From a bacterium (lineage in GTDB: Bacteria; UBP15; UBA6099; DSWB01), in assembly GCA_020061125.1 (NCBI GenBank), contig JAGUYV010000052.1, positions 1 through 22,195 of the forward strand: 22,195 nt of DNA, read 5' to 3'. Below the pieces are notes generated by a model. That model was not told where the DNA came from. It did not search any database and saw only the letters and a program-made list of their open reading frames with translations. The translations under genes were made by a program, and so were the position numbers. Position 1 is the stretch's first letter. Each line of letters opens with the position of its first letter. Of this stretch, positions 802 to 21,823 are shown one piece after another.

Positions 802-3800
802 TCAATCTATGGTCGTAAAGTTGCCTGTGGCCGGTATGTTTGTGACCGGATCCGCGGCGTTGCCCGCGGGATCGCGCAGACCCGCGGGCACGAAGCGCGC
901 GGTGATGTTGTATGTGGTGGACGGGTACAGGCGCTTGAGTCCCATGCCCGTGAGAATGGCGTTGCTGCGCAGGGTGAAGGCCAGGGTGTCGCTGGTAATG
1001 AACATGTTCGTCCAGAAGAAGGTGCCGTAGGCCAGGGCGTTGGAGCTGTCTATGGTCATGCTCATGCCCGTGGAAGCGTTCTGGATGGTGATGCTGAAGC
1101 CCGACGCTAAAAGCGTGGCCGGGTCGTTCATGTTCACGGTGGTGTCCATGGTTTCATTGAAAATCACATTGAATGTGGGCTGGTTGTAGGGCACGAACAC
1201 ATTGCCGCTCGCCGGGAAAAACCCTATGACATTGGGAGAATCCTCATCAAGGATGTTGGAGCAGGCCGCGACGCAAGTGGACGGGTTGGTGCAGGTGTCA
1301 ACGGTGGCCGGATTTCCGTCGTTGCAGGCCGCATCCGAGCTGCACGCCGGGGTGCAGGGCGTGCTGGAGCAGGCCGCGGCGCATGTGCCGGGGCTGCCGC
1401 AGGCGTCGCTTGTGAGCGAGTCGCCGTCGTCGCAGTCGGCGTTCGAGAAACACGCCGGGAAACAGGCGTTGTTGGAGCACGCGGCGTCGCATGTGCCGGG
1501 ATTCACGCAGACATCAGTGGTCAGTGGATTGTCGTCATTGCAATTTGCCGAAGAGTTACAAACCGGCGTGCAGGGGGCGTACGAACAGGATGCGCTGCAT
1601 GTGCCGGGATTCACACAGGTGTCGGCGGTCTGGGAATTGCCGTCGCTGCACTGGGCGTTCGAGCTGCACGCCACGCTGCATGTATTGTGCGTGCAGGCCG
1701 CGGAGCAGGTTCCCTGATTCACGCATGCGTCCGTGGTCATGGGATTGTCGTCGTCGCACTGGGCGTCCGAAGAACAGGCGACCGTGCATGCGGGATTCGA
1801 GCAGTAGGCGTCGCAGGAAGTGGAGTTGTTGCAGATGTCCTGGGTCGCCGCATTGCCGTCGCTGCACTGGGAATTCTGGGTGCACTCCGGGGTGCATGAA
1901 GTGAAACCGCACGATGCGGCGCATGTGCTGGGATTCGAGCATGTGGCGCGCGTGTAGGGGCTGGAATCTTCGGGGCACCCGGAGTCGGCGGTGCAGGCCG
2001 GCGTACAGGGGCTGTAGCTGCATGCGGCGCTGCATGAACCCGGAGAAACGCAACTGTTGGTTGTGAGCGGATTGCCGTCGTCGCAGTCCGTGTTCGAGGA
2101 ACAGGCCACGGTGCAGGTGTGGTAACAGGAAGCGTAATACATTCCCGGATAATTGCAGTAATCCCTGTTCTTGGCATTGCCATCGTCGCAGTCCGCGTTG
2201 GAATTGCATTCGGGGATAATGGCGTGTGTGCAGTACGCGCCGCACTGGCCGCCGTAGTTGCACGAATCCTCGGTGTTGCTTCGGCCGTCGTCGCAATCCG
2301 CATTGGTATTGCATCCGACTTTGCAGGAATAGCAATAAGCGGAGCATGTGCCCGCGCCGCGGCATGTATCCACGGTTGTGGCGTCGTTGTCGTTGCAGCT
2401 TGCGTCCGAAGTGCATTTGGGCGTGCACGAAGCGCAACTCGAAAATTGCATTCCTCCCCAATAACATGTGTTGATCGTGGCGGTATTTCCGTCTTCGCAG
2501 TCGCTGTTTTCGAAACATGCGATTTTGGTGTTGTAGCATTTGGAATACCTGCTGCCGGGGCTGCTGCAATAATCAAGAGTCATGCGATCCCCGTCGTCGC
2601 AGCCCGCGTCGCTTGTGCATGCGATGGTGTAATTGTCGCAGCGCGAGTAATAGCACTGGCCCGGATTCACACAGTCGTCAATGGTGGCGGAATTGTTGTC
2701 ATTGCAGTCGCTCGCGCTGTTGCACGCCACATTACAGGATCTGCAAGCCGAATAGCATGTATTCGGGTTGTAGCAGGTGTTTTTCGTCATTGGATTTCCG
2801 TCGTCGCACGCGGCGTCATCGCCACACGCGGACTGGCAATTGCGGCAGTAGGCGCTGGCCATGCCGGGATTGAAACAAGTGTCCAGCGTTCCGCTGTTTC
2901 CGTCGTCGCACCCCGCGTCATTGCCGCATTTCGGCACAACATTCATGCATCTTGAATAATACATGCCGGGATTTTGGCAGTAATCTATGGTGTCACTCCT
3001 CTGGTCCACGCATTCTTCGTCGGCTTTACAGGGCGGTGAGTAATAATAGCAGTAGGCAGCGCATGTTCCTGACGATTGACAATAATCTGTTGTGCGAGCG
3101 TTTCCGTCATCGCATTCGGAATCGGAACCGCATGCAACCGGGCAATCGGTATGTACGCATCGTGAACATGACGCGCCGAATGCATAGCACCTGTCATAAG
3201 TCTCCGCATTGCCGTCACTGCAATCCGCATTACTTGTGCATTCATTCACGCATTGCGTGTTTATTTCGAGATACGATTCCCCTGCGCCGGTTCTGCTGTC
3301 GGCGCATGCATGAACCACAACAACCTCGGATGTATACCCGTCCTTGGAGGCCCAGATTTCCAGATCCACATCCGCAGGAACGCGGATAAGCTGAAGGGAG
3401 CCGTCATAGGATTTTATTTGCTCGTGAATGTAATATCCATTGGCGTAGGCGTAGAATTGCGCTCCTGGAATTCGGTTCCCCTGGGAATCAACGATGTAAA
3501 CGAAGTAAGCCTGGGAACAGGCTTTACCGAAATAATCAAGATTGAACCATGTCAGGTGAGTTATCGAGAATTGCACGAACATGCCATGCTCGTCCATCAT
3601 GACCGAGGCGCGCATGACGGATCCGTCGCCGTTGTATTCCACGACCCATTCCCCGGTGGTTTCGTTGAACACGAAAATGGGGATTGTGTCGCCCACCCTG
3701 GTGTCCAGCCCGGTTTCCGGGTTCTGGATTCCCTGGGGAACTCGCATGGTGATCTGCACGGACATGCCGTCGGGGAACTGTGTGACGGGATTTCCGTTTT

Positions 3801-4653
3801 CGTCCGTGAGATTGATGCTGGCGAACCCGGCGCTGATGAGCAGGCTTTCCTGTTGCCCGTTTCCCACATCGCTGTTTGTGGTGAAATCGCCCGGGAAAAA
3901 CGAAAGCGCATCCGAATCCGTGGGATCGCCGTAGGATATGGATCCGCGCACGGCGCCGGAGAAGCCCAAAACCTCGGCCGCGCGGTCGCCCGTGCCCGAG
4001 GGGTTACCGATGGTCAGGGTAACATCCGCGGGGTCGGACCCGCTCACGGGCGTGGAGAATTCCACGGCCAGGTCGTCCGGCGAAACCACGATTTCGGTCA
4101 CGGCCATCTGTAGGCCGGTGTCCGGGTCCGTGATGACCAGGGGCTGGGCCTGCGAAGTTGTTCCGTCCGAGCGGTAGATTTTGCCCTGCGTGGCCTGGTC
4201 CGCGGTCTGGGGCAGGCGCTTCATGAGCAGGCTCTGCTCGAACACGCCGTTTTCGTGCCCGTTGGGCATCAGGGTCACGGTTTTAAACAGCGGCTCGTAT
4301 GTGTTTTTCAACACCTTGATTTTCACGGCCGTGCCGGTGTCCGCAACCGAGCCAATGCTGGAAGAAAACCGCCCCTCGCCGTCGGTGGTCATGGCCGCGG
4401 TTCCGTTCACGGTCACGCTTGCGTTGGGCACGGGATTGCCGTCCGTGTCCGTGACCGTGGCGGCCAGAACGAATGCGCCTTCTCTGGCGGCATCGGAATT
4501 GTCCGTGGGCGTGGTTGTGGCCGGGGTCCCGGTTTTCCAGGTGGCCCCGCCGCCGCCTCCGCCGCCGCACCCGCAGATTACGCCCATCCACAGGCACAGG
4601 CCAAATATTGCCATTGACAAACGAACATCACACATTGCATGTGGCGATCGCAT
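802..4653 (-). CDS. Large cysteine-rich repeat lipoprotein, 1283 aa
   Basis: Predicted exported, lipid-anchored surface protein of unknown function. I choose the ATG at 4653: a GGGGGGA Shine-Dalgarno lies 6 nt upstream and a hydrophobic segment ends in the lipobox-like I-C-G-C (Cys29). The in-frame ATG at 4722 lacks an SD and lies inside a promoter. After Cys29 comes a run of seven glycines, then a carboxypeptidase-regulatory-like or Ig-like domain (about residues 55-145, 'VTDTDGNPVPNASVTVNG'). Next is a long beta-rich region (about 150-465) with a second 'D-S-Q-G-N-R-I-P-G-A' segment, then 19 tandem Cys-rich repeats (468-1131), and finally a Big_5/SbsA-type Ig-like domain (about 1140-1283, 'PASGNVFVPYNQPTFNVIFNE', shortened here to its hallmark start). 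The repeats resemble the C-x(5)-C-x-DGN type seen in large secreted proteins of deltaproteobacteria and Myxococcota. Adhesion or cell-surface structure is inference. Confidence 0.85.
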   Translation of the reverse strand: MRSPHAMCDVRLSMAIFGLCLWMGVICGCGGGGGGGATWKTGTPATTTPTDNSDAAREGAFVLAATVTDTDGNPVPNASVTVNGTAAMTTDGEGRFSSSIGSVADTGTAVKIKVLKNTYEPLFKTVTLMPNGHENGVFEQSLLMKRLPQTADQATQGKIYRSDGTTSQAQPLVITDPDTGLQMAVTEIVVSPDDLAVEFSTPVSGSDPADVTLTIGNPSGTGDRAAEVLGFSGAVRGSISYGDPTDSDALSFFPGDFTTNSDVGNGQQESLLISAGFASINLTDENGNPVTQFPDGMSVQITMRVPQGIQNPETGLDTRVGDTIPIFVFNETTGEWVVEYNGDGSVMRASVMMDEHGMFVQFSITHLTWFNLDYFGKACSQAYFVYIVDSQGNRIPGAQFYAYANGYYIHEQIKSYDGSLQLIRVPADVDLEIWASKDGYTSEVVVVHACADSRTGAGESYLEINTQCVNECTSNADCSDGNAETYDRCYAFGASCSRCVHTDCPVACGSDSECDDGNARTTDYCQSSGTCAAYCYYYSPPCKADEECVDQRSDTIDYCQNPGMYYSRCMNVVPKCGNDAGCDDGNSGTLDTCFNPGMASAYCRNCQSACGDDAACDDGNPMTKNTCYNPNTCYSACRSCNVACNSASDCNDNNSATIDDCVNPGQCYYSRCDNYTIACTSDAGCDDGDRMTLDYCSSPGSRYSKCYNTKIACFENSDCEDGNTATINTCYWGGMQFSSCASCTPKCTSDASCNDNDATTVDTCRGAGTCSAYCYSCKVGCNTNADCDDGRSNTEDSCNYGGQCGAYCTHAIIPECNSNADCDDGNAKNRDYCNYPGMYYASCYHTCTVACSSNTDCDDGNPLTTNSCVSPGSCSAACSYSPCTPACTADSGCPEDSSPYTRATCSNPSTCAASCGFTSCTPECTQNSQCSDGNAATQDICNNSTSCDAYCSNPACTVACSSDAQCDDDNPMTTDACVNQGTCSAACTHNTCSVACSSNAQCSDGNSQTADTCVNPGTCSASCSYAPCTPVCNSSANCNDDNPLTTDVCVNPGTCDAACSNNACFPACFSNADCDDGDSLTSDACGSPGTCAAACSSTPCTPACSSDAACNDGNPATVDTCTNPSTCVAACSNILDEDSPNVIGFFPASGNVFVPYNQPTFNVIFNETMDTTVNMNDPATLLASGFSITIQNASTGMSMTIDSSNALAYGTFFWTNMFITSDTLAFTLRSNAILTGMGLKRLYPSTTYNITARFVPAGLRDPAGNAADPVTNIPATGNFTTID
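1261..3252 (-). repeat. Nineteen tandem about 35-residue Cys-rich repeats within the lipoprotein
   Basis: The unit reads roughly C-x-S-[ND]-A-x-C-[DNS]-D-G-N-x-x-T-x-D-x-C-x-N-P-G-T-C-x-A-x-C, typically six cysteines per unit. I count 19 units between residues 468 and 1131. The last eight or so (nearest the C-terminus) are the most alike, with 'CTPAC' joints. The earlier ones are more diverged and some have Tyr-Tyr or Met-Tyr in place of the fifth Cys, which suggests expansion from the 3' part of the array. The DNA repeats are not identical, so this is an old array, not a recent slippage product. Confidence 0.85.
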
Positions 4654-4699
4654 GAGTGTCCCCCCGGCTGATAAAATTCCGTTGCTTGCCGTTGTCTGA

Positions 4700-4727
4700 A
4701 TTCTACCCTGCGGCGATTTCATGTAAA
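4700..4727 (-). promoter_or_regulatory. Sigma70-type promoter of the lipoprotein gene
   Basis: On the minus strand, TTTACA (4727-4722) and TAGAAT (4705-4700) are separated by 16 bp. Transcription would start near 4693. This is downstream of the in-frame ATG at 4722 and 40 nt upstream of the ATG at 4653, which supports the shorter protein. Confidence 0.55.
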
Positions 4728-5534: not shown

Positions 5535-7736
5535 GTGACGGTCAAATCCGAAACCATGGAACAGAAAATGCCCGCCATGCACAGCAATGTGCAGGAAATG
5601 GTGGACGCCGTGATCGAGGACATCGGCACGGACATCCGTATGGGGCTGCCCATCGGCGTTGGCAAGCCAACGATTCTGGCCAATGAAATCTACCGCCGGG
5701 CCAAAGAGAATCCCAACATCAAGCTCAAGATTTTCAGCGGCCTGTCCCTGTGCGTGCCCCAGGGCAAGTCCGACCTCGAAAAACGGTTCCTCGGTCCCTT
5801 GGTCAAACGCCTGTTCCCGGACTACCCGGACCCGCAATTCACTATTGACTCGTTCAAGGGCAAGCTGCCGGACAATGTGGAGATCTCGGATTTCTACATC
5901 ACGCCCGGCGCGTATGTGGGCAACCGGTTCGTGCAGCAGGGCTACATTTCGTCGAACTACTCGCATGTGCCGCGCGATGTGATTGACGCGGGCGTGAATG
6001 TGGCTGCGGGCCTGGTGTGCCGCAAGACCGTGGACGGCCGCGAGATGTACAGCTTGAGCAGCAACGCGGACGCGCCCCTCGACACCGTGTGGAAACTCCA
6101 GGAAATGCGACGCACCATCGGAAAAAAAGTCGCCATCATCGGACAGGTCAACCAGAACCTGCCCTTCATGTACGGCACGGCCGCGGCCTACCCCGAAACC
6201 TGGGACTACATCCTCGACAACCCGGATTATTACCACCAGCTTTTCGGCCCGCCCCGCGAGGCCATCAACACCACGGACTACATGATCGGCATCAACGCCA
6301 GCACGCTCATCCGCGACGGCGGCTCCATCCAGATCGGCATCGGCTCCCTGGGCGACGCCATCACCATCGGCCTGGTCATGCGCCACAAGAACAATCCCCT
6401 GTACCGCGAGTTCGTGGAAAAGGCCGGAATTTACGAACGCTACGGCGCTTCCATTGACAAAATCGGCGGCCTGGACACCTTCGAAAAAGGACTCTACGGC
6501 GTCACCGAACTCATGGTGGACGGGTTCATTCAGCTCATTAAAAACGACATCATCAAGCGCAAGGTCTACGACAACCGCTACCTGCAAAAACTCATAAATG
6601 AAGGCCACATCACCGAGCAAGTGACCCCGCGCACCCTGGAACTGCTCCTCGATGAAGGCGCGATCAGCCCGCAGCTCAACGAAGAGGATGTGATCTTCCT
6701 CAAGGACTTCGGCGTGCTGCGCGAAGACATCCGCCTGGAGAACAGGCAGTTGCTCAACGGCGACGGAACCGGGTTCCTCGCGGACCTGTCCGACGGCGCG
6801 GCCATGGACGGCATCTGCAAGAAATTCCTCGGGGACAGGCTCAAGAAGGGCGTGCTCGTGCACGCCAGCTTCTTCGTCGGCCCCCCCACCTTTTACCAGG
6901 CTCTGCGGGACATGTCCGAGGAAGAACGCTGGCGCATCCAGATGCGCGAGATCAGCTTCTGCAACACCCTGCGCGGCGACGAGCAGCTCAAGCTGGCCCA
7001 GCGCCAGAGCGCCCGGTTCGTGAATGTCGCCCTCATGCAGACCCTGCTCGGCAACACGGTCAGCGACGGACTCGAAAACGGACAGGTCATCAGCGGCGTG
7101 GGCGGCCAGTTCGATTTCGTGACCATGGCCCACGGCCTGCCCGGCGGCCGCAGCATCATCCTTCTGCGCAGCACAAAACAGCAGAAGGATTCCCTTACAA
7201 GCAACATCCGCTGGAACTACGGCCACTGCACCGTGCCGCGCCACATGCGCGACTTCGTGGTCACAGAGTACGGCATCGCCGACCTGCGCGGCATGCCCGA
7301 CCGCAAGGTCATCGCCAACCTCATCAACATCGCCGATTCCCGCTTCCAGGAAGAGCTTCTTGCCAAGGCCAAGGAAGCCCAGAAGATTCCGGACAGCTAC
7401 AAAATTCCGCAATCCTACCGCCAGAACTACCCCGAGCGGCTCGAAAAGGAACTCAAGCCCTTCCGCGAAAAAGGACACTTCAACCCCTTCCCGTTCGGCT
7501 CCCAGTTCACCGACGAGGAGATCACCATCGGCAAGGCCCTGCAATCCCTCAAGGCCACCATGGAGACCAAGAAATTCACCATGCTTCCCATGGACAAGAT
7601 GAAAAAGATCCTGTCCCCGCCGCGCGAGGCTCTGACGCTGCTCCAGCGCCTGGACCTCGACAAGCCCAAAAACGGCAAGGAGAAAATCACGCAGAAACTC
7701 GTGCTCTACGCCCTGGCGCAGACCGGCGCGATTTGA
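5535..7736 (+). CDS. Long-form acetyl-CoA hydrolase / acyl-CoA transferase, 733 aa
   Basis: A member of the acetyl-CoA hydrolase/transferase family, whose members move CoA between acetyl-CoA and a carboxylate or release acetate. Recognisable parts are an N-terminal 'GLPIGVGKPTILANEI', 'IQIGIGSLGDAITIGL', 'YGVTELMVDG' with Glu325 at the position expected for the family's catalytic glutamate, 'GVGGQFDFV' (about residue 521), and the hallmark 'VTEYGIADLRG' (Glu578). At 733 residues it is much longer than the roughly 430-510 of most members: about 170 extra residues lie between the catalytic Glu and the GVGGQFDF motif, and there is a tail of about 140 residues. The start is GTG, with a purine-rich AGGGTGGA upstream. 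Cytoplasmic. With the pyruvate:ferredoxin oxidoreductase nearby it could complete acetate formation (inference). The exact acceptor is unknown. Confidence 0.85.
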   Translation: MTVKSETMEQKMPAMHSNVQEMVDAVIEDIGTDIRMGLPIGVGKPTILANEIYRRAKENPNIKLKIFSGLSLCVPQGKSDLEKRFLGPLVKRLFPDYPDPQFTIDSFKGKLPDNVEISDFYITPGAYVGNRFVQQGYISSNYSHVPRDVIDAGVNVAAGLVCRKTVDGREMYSLSSNADAPLDTVWKLQEMRRTIGKKVAIIGQVNQNLPFMYGTAAAYPETWDYILDNPDYYHQLFGPPREAINTTDYMIGINASTLIRDGGSIQIGIGSLGDAITIGLVMRHKNNPLYREFVEKAGIYERYGASIDKIGGLDTFEKGLYGVTELMVDGFIQLIKNDIIKRKVYDNRYLQKLINEGHITEQVTPRTLELLLDEGAISPQLNEEDVIFLKDFGVLREDIRLENRQLLNGDGTGFLADLSDGAAMDGICKKFLGDRLKKGVLVHASFFVGPPTFYQALRDMSEEERWRIQMREISFCNTLRGDEQLKLAQRQSARFVNVALMQTLLGNTVSDGLENGQVISGVGGQFDFVTMAHGLPGGRSIILLRSTKQQKDSLTSNIRWNYGHCTVPRHMRDFVVTEYGIADLRGMPDRKVIANLINIADSRFQEELLAKAKEAQKIPDSYKIPQSYRQNYPERLEKELKPFREKGHFNPFPFGSQFTDEEITIGKALQSLKATMETKKFTMLPMDKMKKILSPPREALTLLQRLDLDKPKNGKEKITQKLVLYALAQTGAI

Positions 7737-7871: not shown

Positions 7872-8810
7872 ATGCACTTTGAAACCGCCGGAATAACCGT
7901 TGCGCCATGGATTCCGCCGCTCGTGGCGTTTGTGATTTCGTTCTTCACATCCATGGGCGGCGTGTCGGGCGCGTTTCTGATCCTGCCGTTCCAGGTGTCC
8001 GTACTGGGCTTCACCAACCCGTCGGTGAGTTCCACGAACCAGCTTTACAACATCGTGGCCATCCCCAGCGGCGTGTACCGGTACATCCGCGAGGGCCGCA
8101 TGGTGTGGCCGCTCACATGGGTGGTCATCGTCGGCACCCTGCCCGGCGTGTTCATCGGCGCGTGGCTGCGCGTGGAGTACCTGCCCGACCCGCGCAACTT
8201 CAAGCTGTTCGCGGCCCTGGTCCTGCTCTACATCGGCGTCAGGCTCATCAAGGATCTTCTCGCTAAAAAGACACAGGCGAACGCGGACGCCGAGAAACGG
8301 TTTCAGGAAATGGTGTCCCGGCACAGGCAGAACAAACAGGGCGGCGAACCCCTGGCCGCAGTGCGCGTGCTCCAGTTTTCGCTCACGCGCATCGAGTACG
8401 AATTCTACGGCGAGAAATTCGGCTTTCCCGTATGGGGAATCATGACCTTGAGTTTTATCGTGGGCATCGTGGGCGGGGTGTACGGCATCGGCGGCGGGGC
8501 CATCATCGCGCCGTTTTTTGTGACCTTCTTCAAGCTGCCCGTGTACACCGTGGCCGGGGCCGCGCTCATGGGCACCTTCATCACATCCGTGGCCGGAGTC
8601 ATCTTCTACCAGCTCATCGCGCCGTATTACCCGGGCATGTCCGTGGCGCCGGACTGGATGCTGGGCCTGCTGTTCGGCCTCGGCGGAATGGCGGGCATGT
8701 ACATGGGCGCAAGACTCCAGAAATTCGTTCCCGCCAAATTCATCAAATGGATGCTCGGCGCCATCATCACCTTCACCGCGCTCAAATACATTCTGGAATT
8801 TGTGAAATAA
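7872..8810 (+). CDS. TauE/SafE-family permease (sulfite/organosulfonate exporter type)
   Basis: A 312-residue polytopic inner-membrane protein. The N-terminal half carries about four hydrophobic segments, beginning 'PPLVAFVISFFTSMGGVSGAF'-like (residues 12-32) with 'SSTNQLYNIVAIPSG'. A hydrophilic cytoplasmic loop (about 135-180) precedes a second half with 'GIVGGVYGIGGGAIIAP', the repeated G-x-x-G-I-G-G-G-x-x-x-x-P signature of TauE/SafE permeases, and further segments to the C-terminus. The family includes exporters for sulfite, sulfoacetate and other anions; substrates are rarely predictable. Start: ATG with GGAGG 9 nt upstream. That SD is half of the perfect palindrome GGAGGCCTCC (7858-7867). 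The gene converges on the glycyl radical enzyme with a 50-bp gap. A role in exporting an anion made by that enzyme is only a guess. Confidence 0.85.
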   Translation: MHFETAGITVAPWIPPLVAFVISFFTSMGGVSGAFLILPFQVSVLGFTNPSVSSTNQLYNIVAIPSGVYRYIREGRMVWPLTWVVIVGTLPGVFIGAWLRVEYLPDPRNFKLFAALVLLYIGVRLIKDLLAKKTQANADAEKRFQEMVSRHRQNKQGGEPLAAVRVLQFSLTRIEYEFYGEKFGFPVWGIMTLSFIVGIVGGVYGIGGGAIIAPFFVTFFKLPVYTVAGAALMGTFITSVAGVIFYQLIAPYYPGMSVAPDWMLGLLFGLGGMAGMYMGARLQKFVPAKFIKWMLGAIITFTALKYILEFVK

Positions 8811-8860: not shown

Positions 8861-11692
8861 TCATTTTATGGCATCGTGATTCCCGTACCGGCCGATCATT
8901 TCGAGTTGCGCGCCGATGGAGAGGTCAACAAAGCGTGCGTTGTAGCCGGAGACGCGGACGATGAGGTTGGTGTGGTTTTCGGGGTGCTTCATGGCGTCGC
9001 GCAGGGTGGCTTCGCTGTGCGCGGTGATCTGCACCTGCATGCCTTCGAGCTGCGCGAAGTACACCTGGAGCATGGCGATCATGCTGGGTTCGAGCAGGGT
9101 TTCGGGATCCATGATGAGGTTGACGGCGATGCCGTTGGCGGGCCGCAGCCCGGCGGTGGCGCGCAGAATTTCCACGGTTCCGGCCTCGGTGCCCTTGTGC
9201 GAAGGGGTGACGCCGGAGGTGAGGTGGCTGCCCGCGAGGCGGCCGTCGGGCGTGGCCCCGGTCATGGCGCCCGCGCCCGCGTGGTACGACATGCTCCAGT
9301 TGCCGGTCAGGTGCCTTTCGCCCCGCGGCCCGATGATGGTGTGGAAGGTGTCCGCAAACAGCTTTTCCACATCAAGCGCCATGAGCGTTGCTTCTTCATC
9401 CCTGCCGAATTTGGGCGCTTTGTTCAGCAGCAGCGCGCGGATCACCTGTCCCTTTTCAGTTTCATAATTTTTCAACAGCGCCTCTTCGAGGTCCGCGGGG
9501 CTGATGAGCTTCTTTTCGTAAACCAGTTCCTTGATGGCGCACAGGGAGTCCACGACATTGACCATGCCGATGAGCGTGACGCCCGACGAGTTGTATTTTG
9601 CGCCGCCGCGCGTGACATCGCGGCCTTTGTCCCAGGTTCCCTTGATGAACGCGGACAGCAGGGGCGTGGGGCAGAGCTTCTGGTGCGCCTTCCACAGCCA
9701 CATGCTGCCGATGCCCGCGCTCCGGCATATCTGGTTCATCTGCACGCAGAAATTGGCGTAGAATTCCTCGAAGGTTTCGCACTGGGACAGGGGCGTGGTG
9801 GCGCGGGTGACGATGCATTGCGCCAGATGGTGCCACCCGCCGAACACGGCCAGTTCCATGATCGAGGCCGCGTTGAGCATGATGGAGCCGGAATGCGCGT
9901 AGGAATCGCCGTTGCCGGTCGGCTCCACGCAGCCCACGATGCCGTAGCCCCGCGCGTCTTCTTGCGACAGGCCCGCGCCCGCGAGGGCCGCAATGTTGGC
10001 CTTGTCTCCGAACAGCGCAAGCGACGCGCCGGTCTTGCCGATCACATCCACGCACAATTTGAGCAGCTCGTCCGAGCCGTTGTTGCGCACGCACAGGTTC
10101 GGCTCGAGCAGGTTGCACTTGGTGGCTTCAAGAATCAGGCGCGCGCATTCGTTGAGGTCCGGGCCGATGGTCACGGCCTGGTTGGGCGGCGTGCCGCCGA
10201 GGATGATGGTCGCGGAATCCGGCACCAGCGGCATCACATCGTTGAGCCTGATGAGAAAACTCGCGATCAGTTCGAACGCGCGCTCACGCGTTATTCTGCC
10301 GCTCTGGATGTCCTGCTCATAGTAGGGATTGATGAGGGTGTCGAGCCGGCCGATGCTCAACCCGGAGCAGAAATTTTCCTGGTTGAGGGCCACGCGCAGC
10401 ATGTTCATGGCCAGCAGGGCTTCATGCAATGAGCGCGCGGGATGCGCCGGGGCGTTGCGCAGGCATTGCGCGATCTCGATCAACTCTTCGCGCCGCGCGC
10501 CCGGCTCGCTCCGCGCCTGCTCCTCGCATGCGTCCGCGTACCGCCGCGACAGCGCGAGTACGCCCTGGAGCACGATGGCCTGGGATTTGAAAAACGATGC
10601 GCGGTCCGCATCCCCGGCGCTCTGGGCCGCAGACTGTTTCTCACCCGCCTCCCGGATCATGTCGAGCAGGCCCCTCTTGAGAATGAACTCGTAATTCGGG
10701 ATGATGTGGCTCGCCATCTGCACGAGCGTCAGCATGTAAAACGCCAGCATTTCGCTCTGGTGGAAACTCTTGTAACTCCCGTTGCGATCCGCCTTGTTCT
10801 TGGCCCAGGCGTAGGGGTTGTTGTCCGCCCAGAAAGGAAAGATGTCCGTGACGAGCGTTTCGATTTGCGCATCGTCAATGAAAGTGGGATCCTTTTCGCG
10901 CCGGTTGAGAGTGGTCAGGTCGGGCATGATGTTGCTGCCGAAAAGCCATGGGAAAACCGCAGTGCTGATGAGGTGCTCTCCCACGCTGCCCACGATGGGG
11001 CCGTCATTGAGCCGGATCGTGCGCCGTTCGAAGGAATGCTTGAGAGCGCCGGCCCAGAGTTCGTTGACGGGAACGCTCCCCTGGTTCTTTTTGAAATATT
11101 CGGTGATGAAGCGCGCATTTTCGATGCTCACATGCGGGCGCGTGTGGCGCATCTCTTCGGCGAGGCGCTCGACCGTGGTCATGCCGGCGCAGTCCGGCAC
11201 GGCCCACTGCTTTTTCGGCGTTTGCTCTTTCTTGTCCCTTTTCGCGGACCGGGACACGCCCATGAGATCCAGCAGCGCGAAAAAGGCCGGCTCGTGGGCC
11301 TCGAAATAAGGCCGCGCCTCGCTGAAAAAATAGCCCAGCAGAAAAAGGTAATAAGGGTTCTTCCGCCCGTCGGTTCTAATCTTCCCTGAAATCATGAGGT
11401 CCAGGACATTTTTCGGATTCTCCAGCATGCCGGCCAGCGCCTTGCCCAGATTCACGAATTCGATGGTGTAAACCATTTCCTTTTCGGACAACGCATAACT
11501 TTTGAAAGAAACCGAACCCTCGATGTCCCGGTAACGGAAAACATATTTGATGCGCTTGTTGGCCGCCACGGCCGCTCTAAGCCTGGGATTGGCCACGGTC
11601 GCAACCGTGAAAATTGTCTGCAATGCGGCCATGGACCCATGGAACAGAACGCGGTCCTTTATGCTCGCTTTTTCAGTTTGTGTTTCAGGCAC
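8861..11692 (-). CDS. Glycyl radical enzyme (PFL-like) with N-terminal extension, 943 aa
   Basis: An oxygen-sensitive glycyl radical enzyme. The PFL-like barrel starts near residue 165 ('ERLAEEMRHTRPHVSIENAR') and includes the active-site loop 'VGCVEPTGNG' with Cys588 and Glu590, and near the C-terminus the radical loop 'RVSGYNARF' with Gly916. A single Cys in a G-C-V-E context, not Cys-Cys, argues against pyruvate formate-lyase itself. The loop after Cys588 also differs from the G-W-H-D run of glycerol and diol dehydratases as I remember them, so the substrate class is open. Residues 1 to about 160 are extra; 'YRDIEGSVSFKSYAL' to 'LMISGKIRTDGRKNPYY' has the look of an SCP2-like lipid-binding fold (inference). 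GTG start with AAGGAG 8 nt upstream. No radical-SAM activase is present in the window; one must be encoded elsewhere. Confidence 0.9.
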   Translation of the reverse strand: MPETQTEKASIKDRVLFHGSMAALQTIFTVATVANPRLRAAVAANKRIKYVFRYRDIEGSVSFKSYALSEKEMVYTIEFVNLGKALAGMLENPKNVLDLMISGKIRTDGRKNPYYLFLLGYFFSEARPYFEAHEPAFFALLDLMGVSRSAKRDKKEQTPKKQWAVPDCAGMTTVERLAEEMRHTRPHVSIENARFITEYFKKNQGSVPVNELWAGALKHSFERRTIRLNDGPIVGSVGEHLISTAVFPWLFGSNIMPDLTTLNRREKDPTFIDDAQIETLVTDIFPFWADNNPYAWAKNKADRNGSYKSFHQSEMLAFYMLTLVQMASHIIPNYEFILKRGLLDMIREAGEKQSAAQSAGDADRASFFKSQAIVLQGVLALSRRYADACEEQARSEPGARREELIEIAQCLRNAPAHPARSLHEALLAMNMLRVALNQENFCSGLSIGRLDTLINPYYEQDIQSGRITRERAFELIASFLIRLNDVMPLVPDSATIILGGTPPNQAVTIGPDLNECARLILEATKCNLLEPNLCVRNNGSDELLKLCVDVIGKTGASLALFGDKANIAALAGAGLSQEDARGYGIVGCVEPTGNGDSYAHSGSIMLNAASIMELAVFGGWHHLAQCIVTRATTPLSQCETFEEFYANFCVQMNQICRSAGIGSMWLWKAHQKLCPTPLLSAFIKGTWDKGRDVTRGGAKYNSSGVTLIGMVNVVDSLCAIKELVYEKKLISPADLEEALLKNYETEKGQVIRALLLNKAPKFGRDEEATLMALDVEKLFADTFHTIIGPRGERHLTGNWSMSYHAGAGAMTGATPDGRLAGSHLTSGVTPSHKGTEAGTVEILRATAGLRPANGIAVNLIMDPETLLEPSMIAMLQVYFAQLEGMQVQITAHSEATLRDAMKHPENHTNLIVRVSGYNARFVDLSIGAQLEMIGRYGNHDAIK

Positions 11693-11716
11693 GGAATGAA
11701 CTCCTTGAAAATGACA

Positions 11717-19028: not shown

Positions 19029-21788
19029 TCAGTCCTTGATCTTCTTGAGAATGTCCATTTCCCCGGCGCGCACGCGCACCACGGAATCCGCGGGGATGCT
19101 CTGGCCGATCCAGACCACAAGCGTGTCGCTGCCGTAATCGCTCTCGAGAGCCGTGGCGTACTGTATGGGCCGGTTTCCGTTCACGGTGACTTCAGCATCG
19201 GTGTAGGGAAAGTTTTCCAGGAGCAGAACGGGATTGAACAGCATATCCCCGGCCGCGCCCTCGAACTTGAGTTTCACGGTGCGCGCGCCCTGGCACTGCA
19301 CGCGGTAACCGCGCTGGCGGGGTTCGAATTCCACGCTGTCCGCGCCCTCCCAGGCTTTCACGGGCGGGGGATCAATCCATGAGCGCGCCGCGGCCAGGAC
19401 TTCGGCGTCCGGCGCGTCCGTGTTGCCGATGAGCCACGCCCACTCAACGAGTTCGTGGGTCTTGTCCAGCATGCGCCGCCGCAGGGGTTCGGTTTCCACA
19501 GCCGTAAGGGATGCGTGGCCCGGCCGCTCGCGCCACCCCGGCGGCGCCTGCATGCATGTGGGCAGTCCCCGCGTGACCGGGTAATGCACGCCCCAGTAAC
19601 TCGGGCTGACATACCGGCCGTCCTCTTTCCATCCGTCGTACTGAACGATGAAATGCTCGAAGCTGCGGGACACCATGACCGGGGTGTTCGCGTCCTTTTT
19701 GCTCCAGTTGATGCGGAACACGGCCGGGGTTTTCGCGTCCCATTTTCCCGCGGGCTGCGGGTAGGTGATGGACTCCTGCCTTGCGCCGTCCGGGGACAGC
19801 ACGCGCACCGCGCCGGGCGGCAGCACATCGAACGGGTTGATGCCCGAGGGAATAAATACGATGAATTCGTTGGCCTCGTGCCAGGTCATGGGCAGGAAAT
19901 GGCCCACGGCGTGGCGCACGCCGTACCCATCGGGATAAAAGGTGTAGGTTTCCTCGGCCCATTCGTTGTCCGCGATTGTGTATTCGAGGTCAATGAGCGC
20001 GTAACGCCAGTCCACCACGGCGCGCGCGGGCGTGCTGGACACGATGAACGGACGCGAGAACCGCGCTTCCTTGTCCTGCAGCGGCTCAATGCAGTCCACC
20101 AGCCCGCCGCGCTCCCACGCGGCTTCGAGCCATTCATAGGTCATGCCGATATTGGCGCGCGACGCCCAGAACGGCACATTGCTGGACCCGCGCCACCAGA
20201 CGAAGCGGTTGCCGTTGGGAAACGACACCACGATGTCGCGGTGCGGCCCGCGCGTCCACAGGCTGTCCCAGTCCGCCGATGACCAGGTCCCGGTTTTCCG
20301 GTCATGGAGCGGCACCGGCCCTTCGTAGGAAAGCTGCGTGTAGAACGCGCCGAAACCGCGATTTGCGGGCCTTGCGTCCTCGGCGATCAGCCAGCGTTTT
20401 TCTTCAAGCAGAATCCGGCCGTCTCGTTCGAGGGTGAGGATGAGCCGGTACTTGCCCGGCTTGACATCCGCGCCCCGCGCGGACAGCGCGCCGTCGAACG
20501 CTTCGCCCGCCGCGACATTGTGATCACCCTTGAGCTCCAGCACGGTCTCGCCCTGTTTGTTCTGCACGCGGGCGCGCGACACAATTTTTTGCTTCCCGGT
20601 TCCTGGGATGAAGCACCAGAAGCGGATGGAGAGCGATTGTTCGGGGATGAGCAGCACGCGGTCGTGCGGCACAAGAGCGCGGCCAAGGTCCACGGGATTC
20701 ACGGCCGGCTCCGCGGCTACTTCGAAACCTCCGAAAAAATCCGGATCCGAAAGCTGCTTTTTGTCCAATACCTCGCGCTTGCCGCCGGCCGTTATCGAGA
20801 GCGCTATTTCCTGGTCCTGGAAGAACAACGGAATTTCGACATTCTCGCGCATATACAGGCGTTCGCCGCCGGGCAGGGTCACGCGCGCCAGAGCGCGGCC
20901 CTTGTGCAGAATTTCCAGCGCGTATTCGTCCGATGCCCGCGCATTGACATTGAGCACGGAAATCTGGACCTCGCGCGCCATGCCCTTGCCGCGCCGGTGC
21001 GCCAGGGGCCAGAAATCGCTGTCCCGGAACAGATAAATGGACCCGCGCCTTTCGAGGCTTTCGAGCCGCGGCAGAACCCTCGCGGCGACGCGAATCAGGT
21101 CCTGACCCATGTCCCCGGAAAAGTTCGTGATGTTGTTGTCCCACAGGCGGATGAATCCGGGCGCGCCCTTTTTGAATTCTCTGGTCCAGGCCGATGCGTT
21201 GCCGTCCGCGTCCAGGGCCAGCACATTCGTGACCGAGGCGCGGGGCAGCGCGCGCACACTGGTCCAACCACTTTTCAGGCCCCATGTTTTGCCTGTTTCC
21301 GCGGGGGCGGCGCTGCTGCGGCCCTGCCAGTTGCCCACGGTGTCGAAACCCAGCACGCCCCGTCCTCCGAGGTAATCCCACTTTTCCTTGTCCCATTTGC
21401 CCTTGCCCACAAAATAAAAAGGGACATCTCCGGGCCGAATCACGGATCCGCCCGCGTCCAGATATTTACGGAACAGGGCGTCCGCGCCCGGCGCGGTTCC
21501 CACGAGCGTGTCCGGAACCACATCCGACGCCATGATGAGCAGTTTCCCGGCCGCGCCGCGCGCCGTGGCCTGCGCCATCCAGTCCCGCACGGCCTGCGCG
21601 TCCATTTGCGCGAACCCGAGCGCCACGGCGAAATCCCGCAGTTCGGCGCTCGCGCCGCGCGTGATCCACGACACCGGATAGTTCTCGTCATAGTAAACAA
21701 CGGCGTCCGGGAAATCCGCGGCGCGCGCCGCGAACGACAGGGCGAACGCGCACGCCGCGCACAGAGCCGTGGCAATGATTTTCTTCAT
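19029..21788 (-). CDS. Large secreted protein of unknown function, 919 aa
   Basis: Not recognised with confidence. The N-terminus is a classical Sec signal peptide (MKK, hydrophobic core, 'AARA' cleavage after Ala23), so the protein is exported. Residues about 25-235 have the alternating pattern of a ThuA/GATase-like alpha/beta domain ('LLIMASDVVPDTL', 'YLDAGGSVIRPGDVPF'). The middle (about 240-470) is beta-rich. A segment near residue 530 reads 'FVWWRGSSNVPFW', a W-R-G-x-x-x-x-P-x-W motif I associate with uncharacterised secreted beta-sandwich proteins. The C-terminal region has many Trp and Tyr, as in carbohydrate-binding or carbohydrate-active proteins. ATG at 21788 is chosen for its GGAGG SD at 8 nt and because it starts the signal peptide. 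It is the first gene of a unit with the metallophosphatase. Confidence 0.75.
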   Translation of the reverse strand: MKKIIATALCAACAFALSFAARAADFPDAVVYYDENYPVSWITRGASAELRDFAVALGFAQMDAQAVRDWMAQATARGAAGKLLIMASDVVPDTLVGTAPGADALFRKYLDAGGSVIRPGDVPFYFVGKGKWDKEKWDYLGGRGVLGFDTVGNWQGRSSAAPAETGKTWGLKSGWTSVRALPRASVTNVLALDADGNASAWTREFKKGAPGFIRLWDNNITNFSGDMGQDLIRVAARVLPRLESLERRGSIYLFRDSDFWPLAHRRGKGMAREVQISVLNVNARASDEYALEILHKGRALARVTLPGGERLYMRENVEIPLFFQDQEIALSITAGGKREVLDKKQLSDPDFFGGFEVAAEPAVNPVDLGRALVPHDRVLLIPEQSLSIRFWCFIPGTGKQKIVSRARVQNKQGETVLELKGDHNVAAGEAFDGALSARGADVKPGKYRLILTLERDGRILLEEKRWLIAEDARPANRGFGAFYTQLSYEGPVPLHDRKTGTWSSADWDSLWTRGPHRDIVVSFPNGNRFVWWRGSSNVPFWASRANIGMTYEWLEAAWERGGLVDCIEPLQDKEARFSRPFIVSSTPARAVVDWRYALIDLEYTIADNEWAEETYTFYPDGYGVRHAVGHFLPMTWHEANEFIVFIPSGINPFDVLPPGAVRVLSPDGARQESITYPQPAGKWDAKTPAVFRINWSKKDANTPVMVSRSFEHFIVQYDGWKEDGRYVSPSYWGVHYPVTRGLPTCMQAPPGWRERPGHASLTAVETEPLRRRMLDKTHELVEWAWLIGNTDAPDAEVLAAARSWIDPPPVKAWEGADSVEFEPRQRGYRVQCQGARTVKLKFEGAAGDMLFNPVLLLENFPYTDAEVTVNGNRPIQYATALESDYGSDTLVVWIGQSIPADSVVRVRAGEMDILKKIKD

Positions 21789-21823
21789 GGCAACACCCTC
21801 CGCCATCGCTTTCTGGTTCACAG

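Follow-up and report, generated by a model that had tools for sequence, protein, structure and literature searches.

The stretch of DNA analysed here (the window) is an entire contig of 22,195 bp from a genome assembled in 513 contigs at 79% completeness, and it leaves at least 8.8 kb of flanking sequence on either side of the gene in question. According to the list of open reading frames and to Pfam, this gene is a single intact frame for a glycyl radical enzyme (GRE) of 943 residues; its location on the minus strand is supplied by the present analysis and was absent from an earlier, sequence-only reading of the locus. The frame opens with GTG at position 11692, and its codon usage is coding-like along the whole length, the N-terminus included. 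The gene product is an oxygen-sensitive radical enzyme bearing a lipid-carrier-like domain, and its features are compiled in Table 1. Elsewhere on the contig lie genes for two probably exported proteins, one of 1306 residues with many Cys-rich repeats of the type C..DGN..T.D.C.NPGTC.A.C (802-4722, minus strand), the other of 930 residues and with no NCBIfam match (19029-21821, minus strand). A similar run of Cys-rich repeats stands N-terminal to an FGE-sulfatase-like domain on contig C351 (L080, 2-2803).

Table 1. Features of the GRE gene in the window.
Feature	Position	Strand	Basis or remark
Shine-Dalgarno sequence AAGGAG	11701..11706	-	8 nt 5' of the GTG
SCP2-like domain plus glycyl radical enzyme, 943 aa, GTG start	8861..11692	-	Pfam; clade placement by trees
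N-terminal SCP2-like domain, residues ~1-145	11258..11692	-	Homologous to the fused/stand-alone domain family A4 (hhalign E 1.9e-5); A4 matches SCP2
Linker, residues ~146-170, charged, KRDKKEQTPKKQ	11183..11257	-	Sequence; low pLDDT
PFL-like barrel, residues 173-806	9275..11176	-	Pfam PF02901, 1e-126; structural model matches
Glycyl radical domain, residues 825-922	8927..9220	-	Pfam PF01228, 4e-16
His329 codon, clade motif SHxIP	10706..10708	-	Aligned to GDH His164
Cys588 codon, thiyl radical	9929..9931	-	Aligned to GDH Cys433
Glu590 codon, catalytic base of eliminase-type GREs	9923..9925	-	Aligned to GDH Glu435
Trp799 codon	9296..9298	-	Trp in all SCP2-associated GREs; Tyr/Leu/Ser/Phe in others
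Gly916 codon, glycyl radical	8945..8947	-	RVSGYNA loop; alignment

The catalytic part with Cys588, Glu590 and Gly916, as proposed in the sequence-only reading, was confirmed, with GCVEP at 587-591 and RVSGYNA at 913. The PFL-like barrel, the RVxGYxA glycyl loop and the catalytic cysteine of the Cys loop place the protein in the GRE superfamily, and the Cys-x-Glu pair (C588/E590) is that of the eliminase-type enzymes (dehydratases, CutC, IslA). The role of the glutamate beside the catalytic cysteine in GRE chemistry has been discussed (PMC6453916). From the set of residues typical of glycerol and diol dehydratases (His164, His281, Asp447 of the GWHD run, and Tyr640; 1r8w numbering), only the equivalent of His164 is retained, Asp447 being replaced by Gly and Tyr640 by Trp. 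The GWHD run does not follow GCVE, just as had been read from the letters, because the active-site loop GCVEPTGNGDSYAHSGS differs from that of glycerol dehydratase, GCVEPQKPGKTEGWHDSAF. In the window enzyme and in the clade described below alike, Cys433, Glu435 and His164 are kept and His281, Ser282 and Asp447 are lost, so that these enzymes retain the equipment for thiyl chemistry with a base alongside, but not the polar pocket known to hold diols. Membership in the CutC, HypD, sulfopropanediol dehydratase, HPAD, IAD and PFL families was rejected, as every NCBIfam equivalog cutoff was missed, the best score being the 330 bits obtained for the CutC family, whose cutoff is 1050. The catalytic part reached 435 bits with the PFL2/dehydratase model, 245 with indoleacetate decarboxylase and 151 with HPAD, and the best structural matches of the full-length model were 2f3o, diol dehydratase, CutC and GDH, with TM (target) ≈ 0.85.

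The N-terminal extension of about 160 residues outside the barrel was borne out, the best alignments to GREs of known structure beginning at residue 168 or later. Residues 1-165 alone gave no Pfam match and hence did not reach the gathering score of Pfam SCP2 (PF02036), neither an NCBIfam model nor a GRE of known structure aligned with the N-terminal residues, and pairwise BLAST with the window N-terminus returned no match. A profile of 44 related domains (A4), compared with 177,635 PDB sequences, retrieved three chains, all of them SCP2/nsLTP proteins at weak E-values of 0.055-0.063; with a smaller profile that included the window N-terminus, SCP2/nsLTP chains again came out on top in the PDB (E 0.03). 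When the A4 members were scanned singly, Pfam SCP2 matched 22 of the 44, at best with 2e-5, and each other family matched one. The window domain aligns with the A4 profile at an hhalign probability of 77% and E 1.9e-5, with 89 columns in register, and in a calibration it ranked first of 1,508, outscoring 507 N-termini from natural proteins and 1,000 shuffled sequences, at a modest 11.2 bits (E 0.016). Its motif VLDLMISGKIRTDG..YYLFLLGYFFS corresponds in position and size to VLxLLLKNxLxxxGNLxYLxLFNFxLS of the clade. Homology of the domain family to SCP2 is well supported, and that of the window's own copy, reached via the family profile, moderately so; the comparison of A4 with the PDB, the Pfam matches of half its members and the relationship of the window domain to A4 thus support the earlier guess of an SCP2-like domain. 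A single-sequence AlphaFold (AF2) model of residues 1-165 had a pLDDT of 43, and in a full-length model built with 13 GREs confidence was confined to the barrel, the N-terminus remaining at ≈ 30-60. Because of this low confidence, the N-terminal model was left out of the fold search, and the support for an SCP2 fold comes from sequence comparison.

An SCP2-associated GRE clade is defined here, comprising the GREs that have an SCP2-like protein as a fused domain or as the product of an adjacent gene. A maximum-likelihood tree built from catalytic domains puts the window GRE in this clade with a support of 100/99, and a 70-row tree gave the same placement (99 SH-aLRT). It forms a basal long branch, with the split and fused groups jointly as its sister; its catalytic domain shares ≈ 35-36% identity at most with relatives, the split-form enzymes being nearest. 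Ten of 44 clade-specific positions are retained, as compared to seven at most in outgroups, and these include the active-site neighbours Ser328 (SHxIP), the Cys-loop residue His600, and Trp799 at the site of GDH Tyr640. The protein thus belongs to the clade both by placement of its catalytic domain and by presence of an SCP2-like domain. The enzyme with its extension is not isolated; it branches off deep in a clade in which nearly all known members have the domain, fused or neighbouring, and is a divergent member of an undescribed family in anaerobic bacteria. Since nearly all family members have the lipid-carrier-like domain, the family is suggested to act on greasy molecules. A scan of genome contigs with the window protein found relatives of 30% identity at most, none with the N-terminal domain, and a search of viral contigs returned no match. 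In the open literature (subscription papers lie outside this coverage) no description of a GRE with SCP2 or a sterol carrier was found; a paper on benzene activation, which appeared to be a precedent, concerns a flavin complex instead. Neither the SCP2-like partner nor the clade, with its split and fused forms and its active-site pattern, is described in the open literature searched; the catalytic core is that of a known superfamily.

The window's genome encodes a second GRE of this kind on contig C387, with 986 residues, a similar N-terminal extension, a matching Cys-loop pattern and an adjoining activase. C387-type enzymes occur in the other six genomes of the phylum at 58-80% identity over the full length, and a GRE of ≈ 990 residues with a related N-terminal domain is present in all seven genomes examined of this small phylum. 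A profile built from the N-termini of the phylum and that of the window was matched in 45 of 395 Desulfobacterota genomes, i.e. about one tenth. Some 39 fused loci analysed in this group carry frames of 980-1070 residues whose catalytic part is 47-65% identical to C387, and the complete genome of Desulfoluna limicola holds four fused copies and one split copy. Three further loci were found in Bacillota, a few of which also encode the fused enzyme; in the samples of Verrucomicrobiota and Goldiibacteriota no fused GRE was found and the family was absent. In the split form, known from other Desulfobacterota, a separate SCP2-like protein of 144-187 residues (typically ≈ 155) is encoded directly downstream of a GRE of ≈ 805 residues, often with overlap and usually followed by an activase. 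Such a GRE adjoins 17 of 21 stand-alone SCP2-like loci examined; two of the remaining four lie next to GRE fragments and one next to an activase. One split-form GRE among the 17 (L179, 4453-7062, minus strand) is broken by one TAG codon in frame, at a site where a relative has Arg; pyrrolysine readthrough, a mutation and an assembly error are all possibilities. Fusion in some genomes and adjacency in others, the Rosetta-stone pattern, is strong evidence that the SCP2-like domain and the GRE work together. Furthermore, molybdopterin enzymes of the pyrogallol-transhydroxylase type in Bacillota genome G1098 (L197, 6963-10178, minus strand; L198, 5799-8756, plus strand) carry a related SCP2-like domain at the N-terminus, and L197 also adjoins a GRE and an activase. 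A second family of anaerobic enzymes seems to have put the module to use as well.

No activase gene adjoins the window GRE, as had been stated before, and none lies on the 22,195-bp contig; a genome-wide search located three, all elsewhere (C351, C387, C345). The weight formerly given to this absence did not hold up: the arrangement is ordinary in the clade, because 25 of 46 fused relatives are without an activase within 3 kb and three are available in trans. The incomplete genome (79%) encodes at least seven different GREs and only three clear activases, and several GREs may therefore share one. In Desulfobacterota the recurrent order is TetR - SCP2-GRE - activase (- SDR); of the 39 fused loci, 18 have a TetR gene nearby, 19 an activase, seven an SDR and five a long-chain acyl-CoA-ligase-like gene. 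In two genomes of the window's phylum (G000, the window's own, and G001) the C387-type enzyme forms an operon with an activase and a class III aminotransferase of ≈ 1020 residues, fused to an acyl-ACP-reductase-like part. The fusion scores 345 bits with NCBIfam PigE and matches PigE (4ppm, 8e-18) and AAR (6jzu, 2e-4) in the PDB, and it might convert acyl thioesters into long-chain amines; its genes (L073, 11027-14170; L074, 13243-16305) represent two genera of the phylum. Taken together, the neighbours in the clade point to acyl chains, aldehydes or amines, that is, to acyl or hydrophobic metabolism. The window GRE stands alone, none of its adjoining genes being conserved with clade operons. 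A TauE-like exporter encoded at 7872-8810 of the window shares 62% identity with its counterpart next to the activase gene in a Desulfoluna SCP2-GRE locus (L089), and a CoA-transferase-like protein of 733 residues (5535-7736) is 55% and 45% identical to genes located ≈ 6 kb and ≈ 4 kb from the SCP2-GREs of L076 and L122, respectively; a weak functional link is possible in both cases. Sulfonate chemistry of the IseG type was considered because 51 bp separate the GRE from the gene of the sulfite-exporter-like TauE protein; it was set aside, as TauE is encoded on the opposite strand in a different operon and has a counterpart in few relatives, and it remains a lead only.

On balance, the window protein is probably an eliminase-type GRE, basal in its clade, whose SCP2-like domain would bind a hydrophobic substrate. 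An activase acting in trans, the best candidate being the one on C387 beside the second SCP2-GRE, would install the radical on Gly916, from where it would move to Cys588, which could then take a hydrogen atom from the substrate. Going by the conserved Cys-x-Glu, Glu590 would deprotonate a neighbouring group, leading to C-O, C-N or C-S elimination, and the SCP2-like domain would bind the long-chain or hydrophobic part of the substrate and present it to the barrel. That the substrate is hydrophobic is inferred, and the genomic context strengthens this inference. Against the whole reading stand the divergence of the catalytic part (10 of 44 positions, ≈ 35% identity), the modest score of the N-terminal domain (11 bits), N-terminal models without a usable fold, the lack of any neighbour in common with clade operons, and the fact that some SCP2 domains do not carry lipids.

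Small accessory subunits of a regulatory or structural kind are known from BSS/HPAD-type GREs. With this precedent, the domain could be a structural or docking module that binds no ligand (a dimer contact, a membrane attachment or a landing site for the activase) on an enzyme with an ordinary small substrate; the small gene of the split form does sit between GRE and activase, and the hydrophobic C-terminal helix of the domain, as seen in its sequence, could rest on a membrane. We nevertheless consider such a module unlikely, given that the neighbours are acyl, SDR and TetR genes and not those of small-metabolite pathways, that the polar diol-binding Asp447 and His281 are lost from the active site, and that a related domain is also carried by molybdenum enzymes, which need no GRE activase.

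Cys-x-Glu also occurs in arylacetate decarboxylases, and genes for an acyl-CoA ligase and an acyl reductase lie near some relatives, which would suit a decarboxylase or another C-C lyase acting on a hydrophobic acid, similar to arylacetate or fatty-acid decarboxylases, in place of an eliminase. The scores for HPAD (151 bits) and indoleacetate decarboxylase (245 bits), far below the 435 bits of PFL2/dehydratase, and the structural neighbours 2f3o, diol dehydratase, CutC and GDH make this improbable. Finally, the window N-terminus might be an unrelated extension, acquired separately and similar to the SCP2-like domain of the clade by chance, in line with the missing pairwise BLAST and Pfam matches and the modest HMM score. 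The hhalign result (E 1.9e-5, 89 columns in register), the agreement in position, size and key motif (VLDLMISGKIRTDG..YYLFLLGYFFS), and the catalytic domain falling independently into the same clade leave very little room for coincidence.

The characterised eliminase-type GREs mentioned in this text act on small polar molecules, whereas the hydrocarbon-activating GREs use fumarate addition. An eliminase-type clade tied to an SCP2-like module points to an uncharacterised anaerobic reaction on hydrophobic molecules. Going further, the clade might be a new GRE class that performs radical elimination on membrane-type lipids or long-chain molecules, with the SCP2-like carrier extracting the substrate from the membrane and feeding it to the buried radical site; we offer this tentatively, as a serious but rather doubtful proposal. 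If so, these enzymes would be GREs directed at lipids and served by a carrier of their own, and they would probably belong to an uncharacterised anaerobic lipid pathway of Desulfobacterota and of the window's phylum. The split form provides a simple entry, as its SCP2-like component is small and probably soluble, and a bound ligand would name the substrate.

Among known systems, the B12-independent glycerol and 1,2-propanediol dehydratases (1r8w, 5i2a, 9rco) share with the window GRE the barrel, the Gly and Cys loops, Cys-x-Glu and the His164 equivalent; in the window enzyme, however, His281, Ser282, Asp447 and Tyr640 are replaced and an SCP2-like domain is added, and at 24-28% identity (fold search) it falls outside their clade. 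Choline TMA-lyase CutC, among the best matches in sequence and structure, has the same fold and Cys-x-Glu in common with it, but the choline-pocket residues are missing from the window GRE (330 bits against the cutoff of 1050) and the SCP2 domain from CutC. PFL2 of Archaeoglobus (2f3o) ranks high among the sequence matches and first among the structural ones, at 28% identity and without the N-terminal domain. The alkyl- and benzylsuccinate synthases (BssA, MasD; 4pkc, 9o8u) are likewise GREs with accessory subunits and hydrophobic substrates, the latter a trait that the window enzyme would share; the match to them is weak (≈ 110 bits) and, to our knowledge, their accessory subunits are not SCP2-like. 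The A4 domains are very divergent from SCP2/nsLTP proteins (PF02036; 1c44, 2c0l), with weak matches and with N-terminal helices and a C-terminal hydrophobic helix of their own, but they share with them the strand-helix core FkdGrvrv..p..aDvtl.F.d...l...L...Lk..lrv.GN.
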